A stretch of 64,000 bases of DNA, taken from positions 1-64,000 of the forward strand of contig LMAJ01000004.1 of NCBI GenBank assembly GCA_001507425.1, in the 5' to 3' direction. A program made the position numbers and the translations under genes. Shown here one piece after another: positions 35,801 to 43,613 of the stretch; position 1 is the stretch's first letter; every line of letters begins with the position of its first letter. A model generated the notes under the pieces. It was given only the letters and a program-made list of their open reading frames with translations. It was not told the origin of the DNA and made no database searches. The DNA comes from Flavobacteriaceae bacterium CRH (GTDB taxonomy: Bacteria; Bacteroidota; Bacteroidia; Flavobacteriales; Flavobacteriaceae).

Positions 35801-36768
35801 ATGAAGGCAGCAATACTGAGAATCGCGGGAGGAGCAGAGAACTTTGCAATTGAAGAGCTTGCTTTGCCAGTTGCTTTGCAAGATCAGGTGCTCATCGAGA
35901 TTAAAGCCTTTGGACTTAACCGTTCTGAGCTTATGACCCGAAAAGGACTATCGCCAGATGTGCATTTTCCCAGAGTACTGGGAATTGAGTGTGTTGGTCT
36001 AGTTATAGATGATCCTTCAGGAAAATTGGCAAAAGGTCAAAAGTCGCTGCTTTTATGGGAGGTATGGGACGTGATTTCGATGGAAGTTATGCCCAATATA
36101 CCGTGGTTCCAAATGATATTGTTATGCCTTTTGAAAGCGAACTTTCCTGGGGAATTTTAGGAGTACTGCCCGAGATGTTCCAGACTGCTTACGGATCACT
36201 TCATCGGGCTCTTAAAATAAAAACTGGAGAAACATTGTTAATCCGCGGTGGTACCTCTTCAGTAGGTCTGCTTGCTTTGCAGCTGGCCAAGCAAACTGGA
36301 CTTTTTGTAATTTCAACCACACGAAGTGAAAATAAAAGAGATTTACTGCTGGCTAACGGAGCTGATGCCGTTTTGATTGACGACGGAAATCTGGAGGAAA
36401 CAATCAAAAATCAAAAACAATTTAAGATTGATAAAGTACTTGAACTTGTAGGTACTGCTACATTACAGGATTCTCTAAAAACTGTTGTAATTGGCGGCAG
36501 TGTCTGTATGACCGGTATGCTTTCTGAACAATGGTCAATTGGCGAATTTGTGCCTATGGATTATATTCCCGCAACAGTCAATCTCACAGTTTATGACAGC
36601 GGACAAATCAGAATTGAAGAAAAATATTTCCAGCAATTTGTTAAGGATATTGAAAAAGGATTAATAAAACCAGCTATAAAACGTATCTTTAATCTATGCG
36701 ATATCGCTGCTGCACACCATTTTATGGAAAGTAGTTCAGGAGGAGGCAAAATTGTAGTACTCCCATAA
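35801..36768 (+). pseudogene. quinone oxidoreductase-like zinc-type dehydrogenase, frameshifted
   Basis: Two overlapping frames together encode one medium-chain dehydrogenase of about 320 residues. The first frame gives the N-terminal catalytic domain (MKAAILRIAGGAENFAIEE to DPSGKLAKGQK). The second gives GGMGRDFDGSYAQYTVVP, the Rossmann motif LIRGGTSSVGLLALQLAK, and the C-terminus GGGKIVVLP. The break is at 36039-36042: a run of four A where five would restore the reading KGQKVAAFMGGMGRD. A single-base deletion in a short A-run may be real or a sequencing error. If real, the enzyme is lost. Confidence 0.8.
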
Positions 36769-37735: not shown

Positions 37736-38728
37736 ATGATAAAAACCGAAAAAACTTTAACCAAAAATATTACAAACCAAAAGAGTGCAATTGAACAGTT
37801 TCGTTTTGATGTGCTTAATGGCCTAAGCAGTACACCAAAAAAACTGCACTCTAAATATTTTTACGATAAAACAGGAGATACGCTATTTCAGCAGATAATG
37901 GCAATGCCGGAATATTACCTGACGAATTGTGAAATGGATATCTTTCAAAATAAAACTTCAGAACTTGCCAGGATTATATTGGAAACTGATGAAGCTTTTG
38001 ATCTAATCGAACTTGGTGCCGGCGACGGAACCAAATCTGCTTTTTTGCTAAAGCATCTTTTAGATCAAAAAGCTGATTTTAATTATATGCCAATCGATAT
38101 ATCGGCTAATATATTGGCTGTTTTAAACAATAAACTAAAGGCTGATCTCCCAACACTTCATATTACTTGTCTGGAAGGAGAATATTTTAAGATGCTAGAA
38201 AAAGCAACCGAATTATCTTCAAGAAGAAAAGTGGTTCTTTTTTTGGGAAGCAATATTGGGAATATGGAGAAAGACGAGGCAGTTGGGTTTTGTAGAGGTC
38301 TTAACAGTTATCTTTCTTCCGGCGATATTGTCCTGATGGGATTTGACCTGAAAAAGAATCCGCAAATTATACTGGATGCCTATAATGATAAAGCAGGAAT
38401 TACCGCAGCATTTAATCTTAATTTGCTAACCCGCATAAACAAAGAACTTAAAGCCAATTTCAATGTAGATAAATTTCAGCATTACCAGACTTACGATCCT
38501 TTAAACGGTGCCTGTAGAAGCTATTTAATCAGTTTGGAGAAACAGGTTATTACTATCGACGGTGAGTCAATTAATTTTGATAAAGATGAGTTGGTGTATA
38601 TGGAACTTTCCCAAAAATATTCGTTAGAAGAAAGCGAAGAATTGGCAAACAGTTCAGGTTTCGAAACAATAAATCATATTATGGATTCCAAAGCGTGGTT
38701 TACAGACGTAGCCTGGCTGGTAGCATAA
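37736..38728 (+). CDS. egtD: L-histidine N-alpha-methyltransferase
   Basis: A 330-residue EgtD-type methyltransferase. It should trimethylate L-histidine with SAM to give hercynine, the first step of ergothioneine synthesis. Family marks are LHSKYFYDKTGDTLFQQIMAMPEYYLTNCE near 45-70, SAM motif LIELGAGDGTKSAFLLKHLL near 95, FLGSNIGNME near 180, and a C-terminal MELSQKYS near 289-296. The last has the Glu-x-Ser-x-Lys pattern that holds histidine in mycobacterial EgtD (E282/S284 there). It opens a tight cluster: egtB follows after 18 bp. Confidence 0.93.
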   Translation: MIKTEKTLTKNITNQKSAIEQFRFDVLNGLSSTPKKLHSKYFYDKTGDTLFQQIMAMPEYYLTNCEMDIFQNKTSELARIILETDEAFDLIELGAGDGTKSAFLLKHLLDQKADFNYMPIDISANILAVLNNKLKADLPTLHITCLEGEYFKMLEKATELSSRRKVVLFLGSNIGNMEKDEAVGFCRGLNSYLSSGDIVLMGFDLKKNPQIILDAYNDKAGITAAFNLNLLTRINKELKANFNVDKFQHYQTYDPLNGACRSYLISLEKQVITIDGESINFDKDELVYMELSQKYSLEESEELANSSGFETINHIMDSKAWFTDVAWLVA

Positions 38729-38746: not shown

Positions 38747-39928
38747 ATGCAATTAAAAGAAGCAGCAGTAAAGCAAGAGTATTTGATACAAAAATACAAT
38801 ACCATCAGATCGCATTCCGAGCATATATGCAAACCTTTAGAAATAGAGGATTATGTTGTACAGCCTATTGCAGATGTCAGTCCGCCCAAATGGCATTTGG
38901 GACATACAACGTGGTTTTTTGAAACTTTTATTCTTAAACCAAATTATAAGGATTACAGCGTTTTTAACGATCAGTATGATTTTGTTTTCAACAGCTATTA
39001 TGAAAGTGTTGGCGCACGAGTTGTACGAACAGACCGTGGCAATTTAAGCCGGCCCTCGGTTACCGATGTTTATTGTTATCGTGCTTATGTAGACCAGCAT
39101 ATGAAAGCTTTTCTGCAAAACAATTCCCTTTCATTAGAATTAACAGAATTACTGGAACTCGGACTTAATCATGAGCAGCAGCATCAGGAACTACTGATCA
39201 GCGATATCAAATATATATTAGGCCATAATCCACTTTTTCCGGTATTTAGTGCTGATACTGTTTTCGATCAAAAAAGCATTTCAAAGAATGAATTCATAAA
39301 GGTTGAATCCGGTATTTATGAAATTGGATATCAGGGTGAAGATTTTTGTTTTGACAATGAACTCGGACGCCACAAAGTATATCTCGACAGTTTTGAAATT
39401 GCCAAATATCCCGTAACTAATGCAGAATACCTTGAGTTTATTGATGATGGAGGTTATACCGATTTTAGATACTGGCACTCGGAAGGCTGGGAATGGGTAA
39501 AAGAAAATACGGCAAAATCACCCTTATATTGGCACTACATCGATCAAAAATGGATGAATTATACCTTTAACGGTTTGAAAGAAATAGATTTAAACGAGCC
39601 CGTATGTCATGTTAATTTTTATGAAGCTTCAGCATTTGCATCCTGGAAAGGCTTGCGTTTGCCAACCGAGGCAGAGTGGGAGGCAGCTTCAATAAATCTA
39701 ACATGGGGACAACGCTGGGAATGGACAGACAGTGCATATCTTCCTTATCCGGGTTTTAAAAAAGCGCCGGGCGCGATAGGAGAATATAACGGTAAATTTA
39801 TGGTCAGCCAGATGGTTTTACGCGGCGCTTCTGTGGCAACTCCTGAGAGGCACAGCCGTGCTACATACCGCAATTTTTTTCATCCCCGCCATCAGTGGCA
39901 GTTTATGGGCATTCGTCTGGCAAAATAA
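38747..39928 (+). CDS. egtB: ergothioneine sulfoxide synthase
   Basis: A 393-residue EgtB-type non-haem iron enzyme that links hercynine to a thiol through C-S bond formation and sulfoxidation. The N-terminal DinB-like domain has the three iron ligands: His in KWHLGHTTWFFETF and two His in LNHEQQHQELLISD. The C-terminal FGE-sulfatase-like domain has SGIYEIGYQGEDFCFDNELGRH, RLPTEAEWEAA and the end NFFHPRHQWQFMGIRLA. Mycobacterial EgtB uses gamma-glutamylcysteine. No egtA or egtC is seen here, so cysteine itself may be the donor, as in some other EgtB types. Confidence 0.92.
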   Translation: MQLKEAAVKQEYLIQKYNTIRSHSEHICKPLEIEDYVVQPIADVSPPKWHLGHTTWFFETFILKPNYKDYSVFNDQYDFVFNSYYESVGARVVRTDRGNLSRPSVTDVYCYRAYVDQHMKAFLQNNSLSLELTELLELGLNHEQQHQELLISDIKYILGHNPLFPVFSADTVFDQKSISKNEFIKVESGIYEIGYQGEDFCFDNELGRHKVYLDSFEIAKYPVTNAEYLEFIDDGGYTDFRYWHSEGWEWVKENTAKSPLYWHYIDQKWMNYTFNGLKEIDLNEPVCHVNFYEASAFASWKGLRLPTEAEWEAASINLTWGQRWEWTDSAYLPYPGFKKAPGAIGEYNGKFMVSQMVLRGASVATPERHSRATYRNFFHPRHQWQFMGIRLAK

Positions 39929-39946: not shown

Positions 39947-40870
39947 ATGATTACGATTGAGGGAGTTTCCAAAAGTTTCGGTTCAAACAAAGCGGTTGAT
40001 ACGGTTTCGTTTCAGGCCAATGATAAAGAAATTCTGGTACTATTAGGTACTAGTGGCTGTGGGAAGACAACCACTTTAAAAATGATCAATCGGCTTATAG
40101 AACCTGATAGTGGCAACATCTTTATTGACGGTAAAAATATACGGGATCAAAAACCGGAGGAACTTCGAAAAACTATTGGTTTTGTGATGCAGCATGCAGG
40201 GCTTTTTCCTCATTATACTGTAGCTCAAAATATTGCTGTTGTACCCAATTTACTCAAATGGGAAAAGCAGAAAACGGAAAAGAGAACTTTAGAACTTTTA
40301 GAAAAACTGCATCTTACAAAAGATATATTAAGTGTTTTTCCTCACGAACTGAGCGGTGGACAGCAGCAGCGTATTGGAGTTGCCAGAGCCCTCATTACTG
40401 ACACCCCTGTTCTTTTAATGGATGAGCCTTTCGGGGCTTTAGATAACATTACAAAGTCGGCGATTCATAATGAGTTTAAAAATCTTGATGAGCTCAAAAA
40501 CAAAACAACCATTTTAGTAACCCACGATGTAGTAGAAGCCTTTGAACTCGGACATCGAATTTGTCTTATGGATAAAGGAAAGGTGGTACAGATAGGTACG
40601 CCATCAGAAATAATATATCATCCTATAAATAATTTTGTTAAAGATTTCTTTGCCAGTAACCGGTTGATGCTGGAGTATAAAATTGCTCCCATAAAATTAG
40701 TTGAATCTTTTCTTCAAAAACCATTGTCATTAAAGGCGCAACAACAATTAATTAAAGAGGCTAATATTTGGGAAACCCTGCAAATTTTAAGTACTGAAAA
40801 TGTTTATAATGAAGACTATGAGGCACTTTTGCAGGCTTTTAATCAATACCGAAAACTTCAAACCGTATGA
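39947..40870 (+). CDS. egtV: ABC transporter ATPase, EgtV/OpuCA-like
   Basis: A 307-residue ATPase of the betaine/choline/carnitine (OpuCA/ProV) group. Walker A is GTSGCGKTT near 36-44, the signature LSGGQQQRIGVARAL is near 140, Walker B is VLLMDEPFGALD and the H-loop LVTHDV. No CBS domains follow the nucleotide-binding domain, unlike osmotic OpuCA. It starts 18 bp after egtB and overlaps the permease gene by 4 bp (ATGA). It probably powers uptake of ergothioneine or its betaine precursors. The symbol reflects context and is not proven. Confidence 0.85.
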   Translation: MITIEGVSKSFGSNKAVDTVSFQANDKEILVLLGTSGCGKTTTLKMINRLIEPDSGNIFIDGKNIRDQKPEELRKTIGFVMQHAGLFPHYTVAQNIAVVPNLLKWEKQKTEKRTLELLEKLHLTKDILSVFPHELSGGQQQRIGVARALITDTPVLLMDEPFGALDNITKSAIHNEFKNLDELKNKTTILVTHDVVEAFELGHRICLMDKGKVVQIGTPSEIIYHPINNFVKDFFASNRLMLEYKIAPIKLVESFLQKPLSLKAQQQLIKEANIWETLQILSTENVYNEDYEALLQAFNQYRKLQTV

Positions 40871-42435
40871 CACAGGAGCAAACTTTTTGGCAATTTATAG
40901 TGTCACAGCATGAAAAATTATTAATACAGATCGGGCAGCATCTGGGACTTACTTTTTTATCATTGTTACTGGCAATTCTGGTTGGAATTCCGTTAGGAGT
41001 CTTAATATCCCGAAGACGAAAATTATCAGCTCCGGTCTTAGGTACAGCAGGAATATTACAAACGGTTCCCAGTATTGCACTTTTGGGCTTTATGATACCG
41101 ATGTTTGGTATTGGTGCTACGCCCGCCATAATTGCACTTCTTATTTATGCGTTACTTCCCATTATACGAAACACCTATACCGGAATTAGTGGAGTAGATC
41201 CGATAGTTATAGAAGCTGCTACCGCACTTGGAATGAATAAAACCCAGCGTTTGTTTAAAGTTGAATTCCCACTGGCCATGCCGGTTATTATAGCAGGAAT
41301 AAGAACCGCTGCAGTAATTAATGTTGGCGTTGCTACTCTTGCATCATTTGTGGCGGCTGGCGGATTGGGTGAATTTATTTTTGGAGGTATTTCGCTCAAC
41401 AACACCAATATGATTCTGGCGGGAGCCATTCCGGCGGCATTATTGGCTGTTTTATTGGATTTAATTATTGGCTATCTTCAAAAATCTACCTTAAAAACAC
41501 TTCGAATAGCTTTTTACATTATTTGCAGTATTGCAGTTGCAACAGGTGTATATTTTATATTTTCGGCTCAACCGGAGCGCAGGATAATTGCAGGATTTAC
41601 GCCGGAATTTATGGGACGTCAGGATGGCGATTTGGGACTTCGATCTGTGTATGGATTAAAATTGAATCCACTTGTGGTTTCAGATGCTATTATGTACGAA
41701 GCCGCCTATCAGGGAAAACTGGATTTGATTAGCGGTTACTCTACCGATGGAAGAATTAAAGCCTTTGATTTGGTAGTTTTAGAAGATGATAAAACTATAT
41801 TTCCACCTTATTATGCCGCGCCGATAATCAAAAGCCTGACACTGAAAAAATTTCCCGGACTTGAAGAAACCTTAAATCTTCTGGCGGGAAAAATTAATGA
41901 CAGTATTATGACGGATCTTAATTATAAAACCGAACTTTTAAAACAGACTCCCGAAAAAGTTGCGAAAGATTTTTTGGTAAGTCAAGGATTATACAAAAAA
42001 GCAAACCAGGGAAATACTGAAACCATTAGGATTGGTTCAAAGATTTTTGGCGAGCAATATATTTTGGCAGAAATGTATAAAATGCTGATTGAAGGTTATA
42101 CCCGTTATAAAGTGGAAACCAAAACTGGACTTGGCGGAACAAAAATATGTTTTGATGCTTTAATGAATGATGCTATTGATTTTTATCCTGAATATACGGG
42201 AACAGGATTGTTAGTCCTGCTAAAACCTTCTGAACACACTATTAAAGAAGTTTCAAAAGACAGCCAAAAAACGTATGATTTTGTTCAAAGTGAATTTCAA
42301 AAAAAATATCAATTAGAATGGCTCAAACCTATAGGATTTAATAATGCCTATGCGCTGATGATGCGCAGAGCTCAGGCGAAGCAATTACATATTAGTACGA
42401 TTTCACAATTGAGTGACTATTGCGCTAAAAAATAA
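40867..42435 (+). CDS. egtU: EgtU-like permease fused to a permuted betaine-type binding domain
   Basis: A 522-residue fusion. Residues about 25-230 form the BPD permease (LQTVPSIALLGFMIPMFG, EAATALGMNKTQRLFKVEFPLAMPVI as EAA loop). Residues about 238-377 resemble the C-terminal half of an OpuBC/ProX-type binding protein (GFTPEFMGRQDG, GYSTDGRIKAFDLVVLEDDK, PPYYAAP, EKVAKDFL). Residues about 386-520 resemble the N-terminal half (IRIGSKIFGEQYILAEMY, DFYPEYTGTGLL, FNNAYALMM, STISQLSDY). The order of halves is therefore reversed from the usual. EgtU in other bacteria is also a permease-binding-protein fusion. Ergothioneine uptake is inferred from the egtD/egtB/egtV context. Confidence 0.88.
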   Translation: MTQEQTFWQFIVSQHEKLLIQIGQHLGLTFLSLLLAILVGIPLGVLISRRRKLSAPVLGTAGILQTVPSIALLGFMIPMFGIGATPAIIALLIYALLPIIRNTYTGISGVDPIVIEAATALGMNKTQRLFKVEFPLAMPVIIAGIRTAAVINVGVATLASFVAAGGLGEFIFGGISLNNTNMILAGAIPAALLAVLLDLIIGYLQKSTLKTLRIAFYIICSIAVATGVYFIFSAQPERRIIAGFTPEFMGRQDGDLGLRSVYGLKLNPLVVSDAIMYEAAYQGKLDLISGYSTDGRIKAFDLVVLEDDKTIFPPYYAAPIIKSLTLKKFPGLEETLNLLAGKINDSIMTDLNYKTELLKQTPEKVAKDFLVSQGLYKKANQGNTETIRIGSKIFGEQYILAEMYKMLIEGYTRYKVETKTGLGGTKICFDALMNDAIDFYPEYTGTGLLVLLKPSEHTIKEVSKDSQKTYDFVQSEFQKKYQLEWLKPIGFNNAYALMMRRAQAKQLHISTISQLSDYCAKK

Positions 42436-42455
42436 GTTTAAACCAATTTCATATC

Positions 42456-43613
42456 ATGAAATATAATTTTGATAACGTACTATCCCGTAACGATAGCGGT
42501 TCAATTAAATGGGATGAAGCTCCGTTTGGAGAAGTACTCCCGATGTGGATAGCAGACATGGATTTTAAATCGGCACCGGAAATTTTAAGTGCTTTACAGA
42601 AAAGGGTTGATCATGGAATTTTTGGTTATACGGCCATTCCGGATGCATTTTATGATGCCATTATAAGCTGGTGGAAAAGAAGATATGATTTCAATCTTGA
42701 CAAGGAATGGCTGATACCGGTTTCAGGCGTAATTCCTGCGTTGTCAGCAGCCATACAATCACTATCACAAACCGGAGATCATGTTATCATACAATCGCCT
42801 GTTTATAATCATTTTTACAGCAGTATTGAAAACAACGGACGTGTTGCTATCGAGAATAATCTGCTTTATAATAATGGTGAATATACCATAGATTTTAAAG
42901 ATCTGGGGCAAAAGGCTGCTGATCAAAAAGCGAAAATTTTGATTATAAGTAATCCGCATAACCCTGTTGGAAGAGTTTGGAAAAGAGAAGAATTACAAGC
43001 AATTGGAGATATTTGTTTAAAAAATAATGTCGTGGTTATTTCAGATGAAATTCACGCCGATTTAGTATTTAAAAAATACATTCATATTCCGTTTGCTTCT
43101 TTGGGAGAAAAATACAGTCTTAATTCCGTTACGCTGAGTTCGCCTACCAAAAGTTTTAATTTAGCCGGATTACAGGTTGGTTATTTTTTTACCCAAAATG
43201 AGCAATTACGAAAAGCAATTCAATCTTCATTTAAACTGATGGGAATCGAATTGCTGAACTTATTTGGCAGCACAGCCCTTATTGCTGCTTATGAAGAATC
43301 AGAACAATGGCTCGATGCTTTAAAAGATTATCTCTATGATAATTATCTTTTTCTGACCGAATTTATAAACTCAAATCTTCCACAAATAAAAGTTACGCCT
43401 TTAGAGGCAACTTATCTGGTTTGGCTTGATTGTACAGCATTGGGGAAAAGGGCAGATGAATTATCACATCAGCTACTTGAAGAACAAAAGCTCTGGATCA
43501 ATTCAGGTGCAATGTATGGAGCTGTGGGTGAGGGATTTTTGAGAATCAATATTGCAACTCCAAAAGTACAATTACAAACAGGACTTGAAAGGCTTTTAAA
43601 AGGATTGTCCTGA
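42456..43613 (+). CDS. PLP-dependent C-S lyase of the PatB/MalY type, candidate EgtE
   Basis: A 385-residue class I aminotransferase-fold enzyme of the cystathionine beta-lyase PatB/MalY group. It starts YNFDNVLSRNDSGSIKWDE and has LPMWIADMDF, ISNPHNPVGRVWKREEL, VISDEIHADLVF and the PLP-binding Lys in SSPTKSFNLAGLQ near residue 231. PatB-type enzymes cleave C-S bonds of cysteine conjugates. In ergothioneine synthesis the last step is a PLP C-S lyase (EgtE) that acts on hercynylcysteine sulfoxide. Position 20 bp after the transporter makes this a strong candidate for that step. Confidence 0.88.
   Translation: MKYNFDNVLSRNDSGSIKWDEAPFGEVLPMWIADMDFKSAPEILSALQKRVDHGIFGYTAIPDAFYDAIISWWKRRYDFNLDKEWLIPVSGVIPALSAAIQSLSQTGDHVIIQSPVYNHFYSSIENNGRVAIENNLLYNNGEYTIDFKDLGQKAADQKAKILIISNPHNPVGRVWKREELQAIGDICLKNNVVVISDEIHADLVFKKYIHIPFASLGEKYSLNSVTLSSPTKSFNLAGLQVGYFFTQNEQLRKAIQSSFKLMGIELLNLFGSTALIAAYEESEQWLDALKDYLYDNYLFLTEFINSNLPQIKVTPLEATYLVWLDCTALGKRADELSHQLLEEQKLWINSGAMYGAVGEGFLRINIATPKVQLQTGLERLLKGLS

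Follow-up and report, generated by a model that had tools for sequence, protein, structure and literature searches.

A permease-fused binding domain with its halves in reversed order beside ergothioneine synthesis genes in Flavobacteriaceae bacterium CRH

Gene content of the locus

The analysed DNA, here called the window, is a stretch of 64,000 nucleotides of Flavobacteriaceae bacterium CRH. One of its open frames, 522 codons long, encodes a permease and a substrate-binding domain in a single chain (Table 1). The genes assigned to EgtD, EgtB and an ABC ATPase all lie upstream of this fusion and a C-S lyase gene lies downstream; the lyase possibly carries out the EgtE step. The ATPase scores below the NCBIfam cut-off for proV. 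Its Pfam matches, at a threshold of E 0.01, include no CBS domain. A model of the full-length fusion protein (pLDDT 78, pTM 0.57), which is too weak for domain orientation, places a helix at residues 209-233, in the region of the anchor. Of the best 80 among 565 relatives from named genomes, F. psychroterrae has the binding domain nearest to that of the window, at 92% identity. A scan of the locus for promoters and terminators gave signals no more frequent than chance. Further upstream, two overlapping open frames (35801-36160 and 36055-36768) look like the parts of a single gene for a zinc-free alcohol dehydrogenase/quinone oxidoreductase that is interrupted by a frame change.

Table 1. Features of the fusion gene and its neighbours in the window
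Feature	Position	Strand	Evidence or remark
EgtD, histidine methyltransferase of ergothioneine synthesis	37736..38728	+	TIGR03438, 294.6 bits (cut-off 290.9)
EgtB, sulfoxide synthase of ergothioneine synthesis	38747..39928	+	TIGR03440, 547.6 bits (cut-off 360)
ProV-type ABC ATPase, 307 aa, likely partner	39947..40870	+	4-base overlap with the fusion gene
Permease/binding-domain fusion	40867..42435	+	Order permease-C half-N half
Permease part, about residues 1-212	40867..41502	+	Pfam BPD_transp_1 at residues 40-207
Additional hydrophobic helix (residues 214-232), interpreted as the membrane anchor leading into the binding domain	41506..41562	+	Hydropathy
Binding domain, former C half, residues 237-378	41575..42000	+	Most of lobe D2 and C-terminal part of D1
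Junction linker, residues 379-384, old C-terminus to old N-terminus	42001..42018	+	
Binding domain, former N half, residues 385-520	42019..42426	+	N-terminal part of D1 and start of D2
PatB-family C-S lyase	42456..43613	+	TIGR04350, 468 bits (cut-off 340)

Order of the halves in the binding domain

The Pfam profile OpuAC (PF04069) matches the binding domain in two pieces that run against the order of the profile: 41590-41976 corresponds to profile positions 117-255 (E 3.9e-24), and 42022-42426, the second piece along the gene, corresponds to positions 2-113 (E 7.5e-25). The same reversal appears against solved structures, as phmmer aligned residues 237-378 with residues 136-277 of the EgtUC chain 9egi (132.1 bits) and residues 385-516 with residues 6-133 (67.2 bits), and the alignments to 9o5f, 7txl and 9egh are reversed likewise. 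Compared with a single copy of Streptococcus pneumoniae EgtUC (7txl), the domain reached a local score of 353 (142 aa, 49% identity), whereas the same sequence written twice gave 538 and joined both halves in one alignment (residues 237-515, 269 aa, 43% identity). The maximum for 200 letter shuffles written twice was 97. The score rose on doubling for five of the five standard-order homologues tried, while EgtU of Enterococcus faecalis, itself in the standard order, scored 870 against 7txl whether this was written once or twice. The reversed OpuAC pieces, the matches of the halves to EgtUC and the doubling test together confirm the proposal of the preliminary description that the binding domain is circularly permuted, and the ranges it gave for the two parts (238-377 and 386-520) are correct to within a few residues.

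That description also proposed that the old C-terminus had been joined to the old N-terminus, which is supported by the short linker and by the position of the new ends. Across 103 homologous open frames the gap between the matched halves is 4-16 residues, with a median of 7. The cut lies between the equivalents of EgtU residues 362 and 365, within lobe D2 by the limits stated for EgtU in PMC9732360 (D1 233-331 and 445-506, D2 341-432). A cut at this place makes lobe D1 a single stretch and divides D2 into two parts, and the anchor now leads into D2 where it formerly led into D1. In the window protein, the alignment with EgtUC puts the continuous D1 at about residues 317-485 and the two parts of D2 at about 237-304 and 495-520. 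An assembly fault, a frameshift or a chance resemblance can be dismissed as the source of the reversed order: the score of 538 stands against a shuffle maximum of 97, and the same order recurs in 22 of the 53 genomes with a match among 395 sampled from the phylum and in the loci of seven named genera, which argues against a fault in the assembly of this genome.

Predicted fold and relation to Bacillus subtilis OpuAC

AlphaFold2, run on an alignment of 21 permuted domains, predicted one two-lobed domain with high confidence (pLDDT 91.1, pTM 0.88), so that in the model the two halves form a single binding-protein domain, contrary to the kind of fold that the preliminary description named as speaking against the permutation. 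Judged by this prediction and by residue conservation, the rearranged chain seemingly keeps the two-lobed fold with its pocket residues in register. In a Foldseek search with the model, the top rank was taken by OpuAC of B. subtilis (about 300 columns, TM 0.62, 14% identity), while EgtUC chains aligned over 139 columns (2.1-2.3 Å, 49% identity) and the single whole-length EgtUC row (7txk_B) fitted badly, at 9.7 Å. VIA-align superposed residues 10-290 of the predicted model on residues 12-272 of OpuAC (243 residues, 3.0 Å) with a Z score of 20.9. The next unrelated row had a Z score of 9.8 and EgtUC in a collinear alignment 8.8, so that OpuAC alone stands out among the families in that list. 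The predicted permuted domain thus follows the chain order of the OpuAC fold from end to end.

This likeness raises the question of whether the permutation is a new event. Descent from a permuted ancestor shared with B. subtilis OpuAC would account for the common topology, for both ends being in register and for the Z score of 20.9. However, identity to OpuAC is 14-16%, compared with 43-49% to unpermuted EgtUC, and no OpuAC sequence appeared in the phmmer list at E 0.01, so that structural likeness is not matched by kinship in sequence. We therefore regard a common permuted ancestor as very unlikely. The combination of an OpuAC chain order with an EgtU/ProX-type sequence suggests that the OpuAC topology was reached a second time, independently, a reading that relies on the contrast of identities, the trees described below being built without OpuAC rows.

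Permeases of this class probably act as dimers, and the model was predicted for a single chain without a partner. Both points would be compatible with a three-dimensional domain swap, in which the halves pair between two transporter subunits and no chain holds a whole binding domain. Against this, a single chain with a short junction already reaches the confident prediction given above, and the single-chain model is collinear with the OpuAC structures. We consider such a swap very unlikely and retain the reading of one complete, permuted domain per chain.

Distribution of three architectures

In the phylum sample of 395 genomes, 53 had matches at E 1e-6: 22 were collinear with the permuted domain, 29 matched in two pieces in the standard order, and two (G295 and G416) matched the C half only. 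A survey of homologues in Bacteroidota, suggested in the preliminary description, thus shows the permuted order well beyond the window. When wider flanks were considered, all 29 two-piece cases proved to be N-C-permease fusions, and the 11 permuted cases fetched, out of 22, were permease-C-N without exception. The class sample held 20 collinear cases among 395 genomes and one in the standard order (G203), and the family of G139 (92 genomes) held five collinear and 13 standard ones. Within the genus group of the window, the gene is present in one of 36 other genomes (G008). No genome carrying both orders was found in the phylum, class and G139-family samples.

Among the named genomes, the best 80 of 565 relatives are all Bacteroidota by title and come from Flavobacterium, Chryseobacterium, Epilithonimonas, Sphingobacterium, Pedobacter, Mucilaginibacter, Chitinophaga and other Bacteroidetes. 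Together with 23 others including the window, they make up the 103 open frames that were split into halves. All 103 are permease-C-N; they had been picked for a collinear match, and the permease of one (L103) is visible at a looser threshold only. The named and the numbered genomes may overlap in part. In the same genome as the window (G000, C2:37080-38402; L003, L020), a weak separate OpuAC match of 23.2 bits adjoins a separate permease-like frame.

Plasmid records contain permease-N-C fusions in Bacillota, a fusobacterium and Qipengyuania, and an N-C-permease fusion in Gemmatirosa (L184), which joins the 29 Bacteroidota loci (L147-L175) of that architecture. The permuted form was not found on plasmids in the top 30 of 388 matching records or in 60 rows spread across them; the top 30 all matched in two or three pieces, as did the spread rows covering at least 75%. 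One plasmid row from Ketogulonicigenium (H72) gave a one-piece match across the junction (query 106-292) and was rejected, as it showed the standard order once split into halves. In a Leuconostoc plasmid (L188, 3293-4830), the permease and binding-domain parts are read in two overlapping frames of different phase.

Trees and possible origin

In a tree of the binding domain computed by a quick method, with the halves written in the order N+C (78 rows), the 35 permuted rows lie on one side of a branch with SH-aLRT 93. In a permease tree of 76 rows, the permuted rows group with six of the seven permease-N-C rows (SH-aLRT 92), apart from the N-C-permease rows. On this tree the permuted rows need two changes instead of one, because a very long haloarchaeal row sits in the open fork. 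The binding-domain tree, in contrast, places the permease-N-C rows of Bacillota with the N-C-permease rows (SH-aLRT 81-83), away from the permuted ones. On the position of these Bacillota proteins the trees are in conflict, and they do not settle the origin.

The most likely origin, in our view, is duplication followed by loss. An ancestral permease-N-C fusion would have gained a second binding domain in tandem by duplication, and loss of the N half nearest the permease and of the C half at the far end would then have left permease-C-N. No tandem-domain intermediate was present among the open frames split into halves. As a DNA trace of duplication, only one 13-base repeat in two copies was found in 41500-42480, and it was taken for chance.

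Gene company, binding pocket and cargo

The neighbours of the permuted fusion point to ergothioneine metabolism. Among the best 80 named loci, 78 contain egtB and/or egtD on the same strand and 74 contain both; egtB is matched in 77, egtD in 75, the ATPase in 77 and a PatB-like lyase in eight, while two loci (L080 and L084) have neither egtB nor egtD. Within this set, the loci of Flavobacterium, Epilithonimonas and Sphingobacterium, and almost every Chryseobacterium locus, have the order egtD-egtB-ATPase-fusion; most loci of Pedobacter and Mucilaginibacter have ATPase-fusion-egtB-egtD. In more distant permuted loci, egtD was present in five of 11 fetched stretches and six lacked both egtB and egtD; for standard-order loci the count of egtD was six of 29. 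Some of the stretches fetched for either count end at contig ends. Counted by genome, EgtD occurs in all 22 permuted carriers, in 30 of 31 other carriers and in 84 of 342 non-carriers (Fisher p 2e-11 or smaller, a value that ignores relatedness and is not to be read as a probability).

The pocket itself was compared across 35 permuted rows. The equivalents of EgtU residues K242, T275, T296, N339, Y341, E375, R379 and Y443 are kept in all of them and that of Y419 in 34, which implies a pocket in use. With Y at position 293 in every row, the aromatic cage of cluster F-III is present (Y293, Y341 and Y443 in 35, Y419 in 34), as is N339. The position of T274 is occupied by G in all 35 rows and that of I243 varies. 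PMC9732360 describes G244, F293 and Y337 as marks of EgtU and the opposite residues as those of AfProX-type glycine-betaine binders. In the permuted rows, position 244 is F (31 rows) or Q (four rows), and 293 and 337 are Y and F throughout. The N-C-permease rows have F244, Y293 and F337 in 30 of 30, and the permease-N-C rows show the EgtU triad in six of eight and lack it in two. Since the contacts are kept and the signature is replaced, the pocket appears complete across the swap without being the published EgtU pocket. The label EgtU-like, used in the preliminary description, therefore fits the sequence of the domain, given its 43-49% identity to EgtUC, but does not extend to the ergothioneine-specificity signature.

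The replaced signature (F or Q at 244, Y293, F337) and the six of 11 distant permuted loci without nearby egtB or egtD matches would suit an importer of the same permuted build whose cargo is an ordinary osmolyte, such as glycine betaine, choline or a similar compound, with the proximity of the egt genes being incidental or stress-related. The same-strand egtB and/or egtD genes in 78 of the best 80 named loci speak against this, as does the presence of EgtD in 52 of the 53 genomes that carry one or the other fusion, compared with 84 of 342 that carry none (relatedness ignored). Moreover, E375, the imidazole contact of EgtU, is kept in all 35 permuted rows, although glycine-betaine binders may keep it as well. 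An osmolyte cargo is thus a possibility of some weight, although not the one that we expect. The association with egtD and egtB favours a cargo from the ergothioneine pathway in permuted and standard-order fusions alike, although the signature argues otherwise, and the most likely candidate is ergothioneine or its precursor hercynine, which would be retrieved by a producer. A working quaternary-amine importer of ergothioneine metabolism is, in our opinion, the best reading of the fusion and its gene company.

Standard-order free binding proteins were also seen beside annotated histidine/aromatic amino acid ammonia-lyase genes in Martelella and Halocatena (L182 and L189), where they perhaps serve uptake for the breakdown of histidine betaines.

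Proposed function and comparison with known systems

Taken together, we consider it probable that the binding domain of the fusion arose in nature by circular permutation of a domain of the EgtU/ProX type (cluster F-III) and belongs to a self-contained ABC importer, with the duplication-loss origin and the ergothioneine or hercynine cargo proposed above. The importer could be self-contained, as an ATPase is encoded just upstream of the fusion. The tethered domain would capture a quaternary-amine betaine, close and dock on the permease, and ATP would then drive import.

The nearest described system is EgtU of S. pneumoniae (EgtUC, PDB 7TXL), which likewise combines permease and binding domain in one chain, has a partner ATPase and a cluster F-III-like binding domain, and shares most of the ergothioneine-contact residues and the overall sequence once the order of the halves is allowed for. 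The permuted fusion differs in the reversed halves, in the replaced G244/F293/Y337 and in usually adjoining ergothioneine synthesis genes, in Bacteroidota. The N-C-permease fusions have the same three parts and the same F244, Y293 and F337, but keep the standard order of halves and have the permease behind the binding domain. B. subtilis OpuAC (PDB 2B4L/2B4M), which is not known to be fused to a permease, shares the chain order of the fold with the ends in register and differs in its low sequence identity. Betaine-binding proteins seem to have undergone this topology change on two occasions, with the cut at an equivalent site; a circular permutation among 2B4L, 1R9L and 1SW1 is reported in the CPSARST paper (PMC2395249). 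Another natural, membrane-tethered and circularly permuted binding protein, TpMglB-2 of Treponema pallidum, has been solved (PMC4990184); by the description in that paper it binds sugar, belongs to cluster B (type Ic) with a permuted N lobe and has no permease fusion. Permuted binding proteins are already known, and we found no report in the open-access literature of a permease-fused one or of this Bacteroidota group. Domain annotation reads this transporter of Bacteroidota ergothioneine operons as an ordinary OpuAC fusion.

The authors of the TpMglB-2 study suggest tethering as the reason for its permutation, without proof (PMC4990184), and the preliminary description offered the same reason for the fusion in the window. 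Our data lend no support to it. The anchor between the permease match and the binding-domain match is 30-51 residues long in six permease-N-C fusions and 25-34 in seven permuted ones. Unpermuted fusions are thus tethered by a comparable anchor, and permutation is no prerequisite for tethering. What the cut does shift is the lobe that is tethered to the membrane, D2 taking the place of D1. We speculate that this shift, by a single permutation in Bacteroidota that left D1 continuous, changes how the domain swings, closes and docks, and that these importers form a second uptake system of the ergothioneine pathway, one which reads its cargo without G244, F293 and Y337 in organisms that make ergothioneine; this combined proposal is tentative and, in our estimate, somewhat unlikely to hold in full. 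Permease-N-C, N-C-permease and permease-C-N are three natural architectures of one transporter that can be compared directly, and the importance of which lobe is tethered thereby becomes testable. Among the N-C-permease fusions, a hydrophobic N-terminal segment was present in four of the five inspected.
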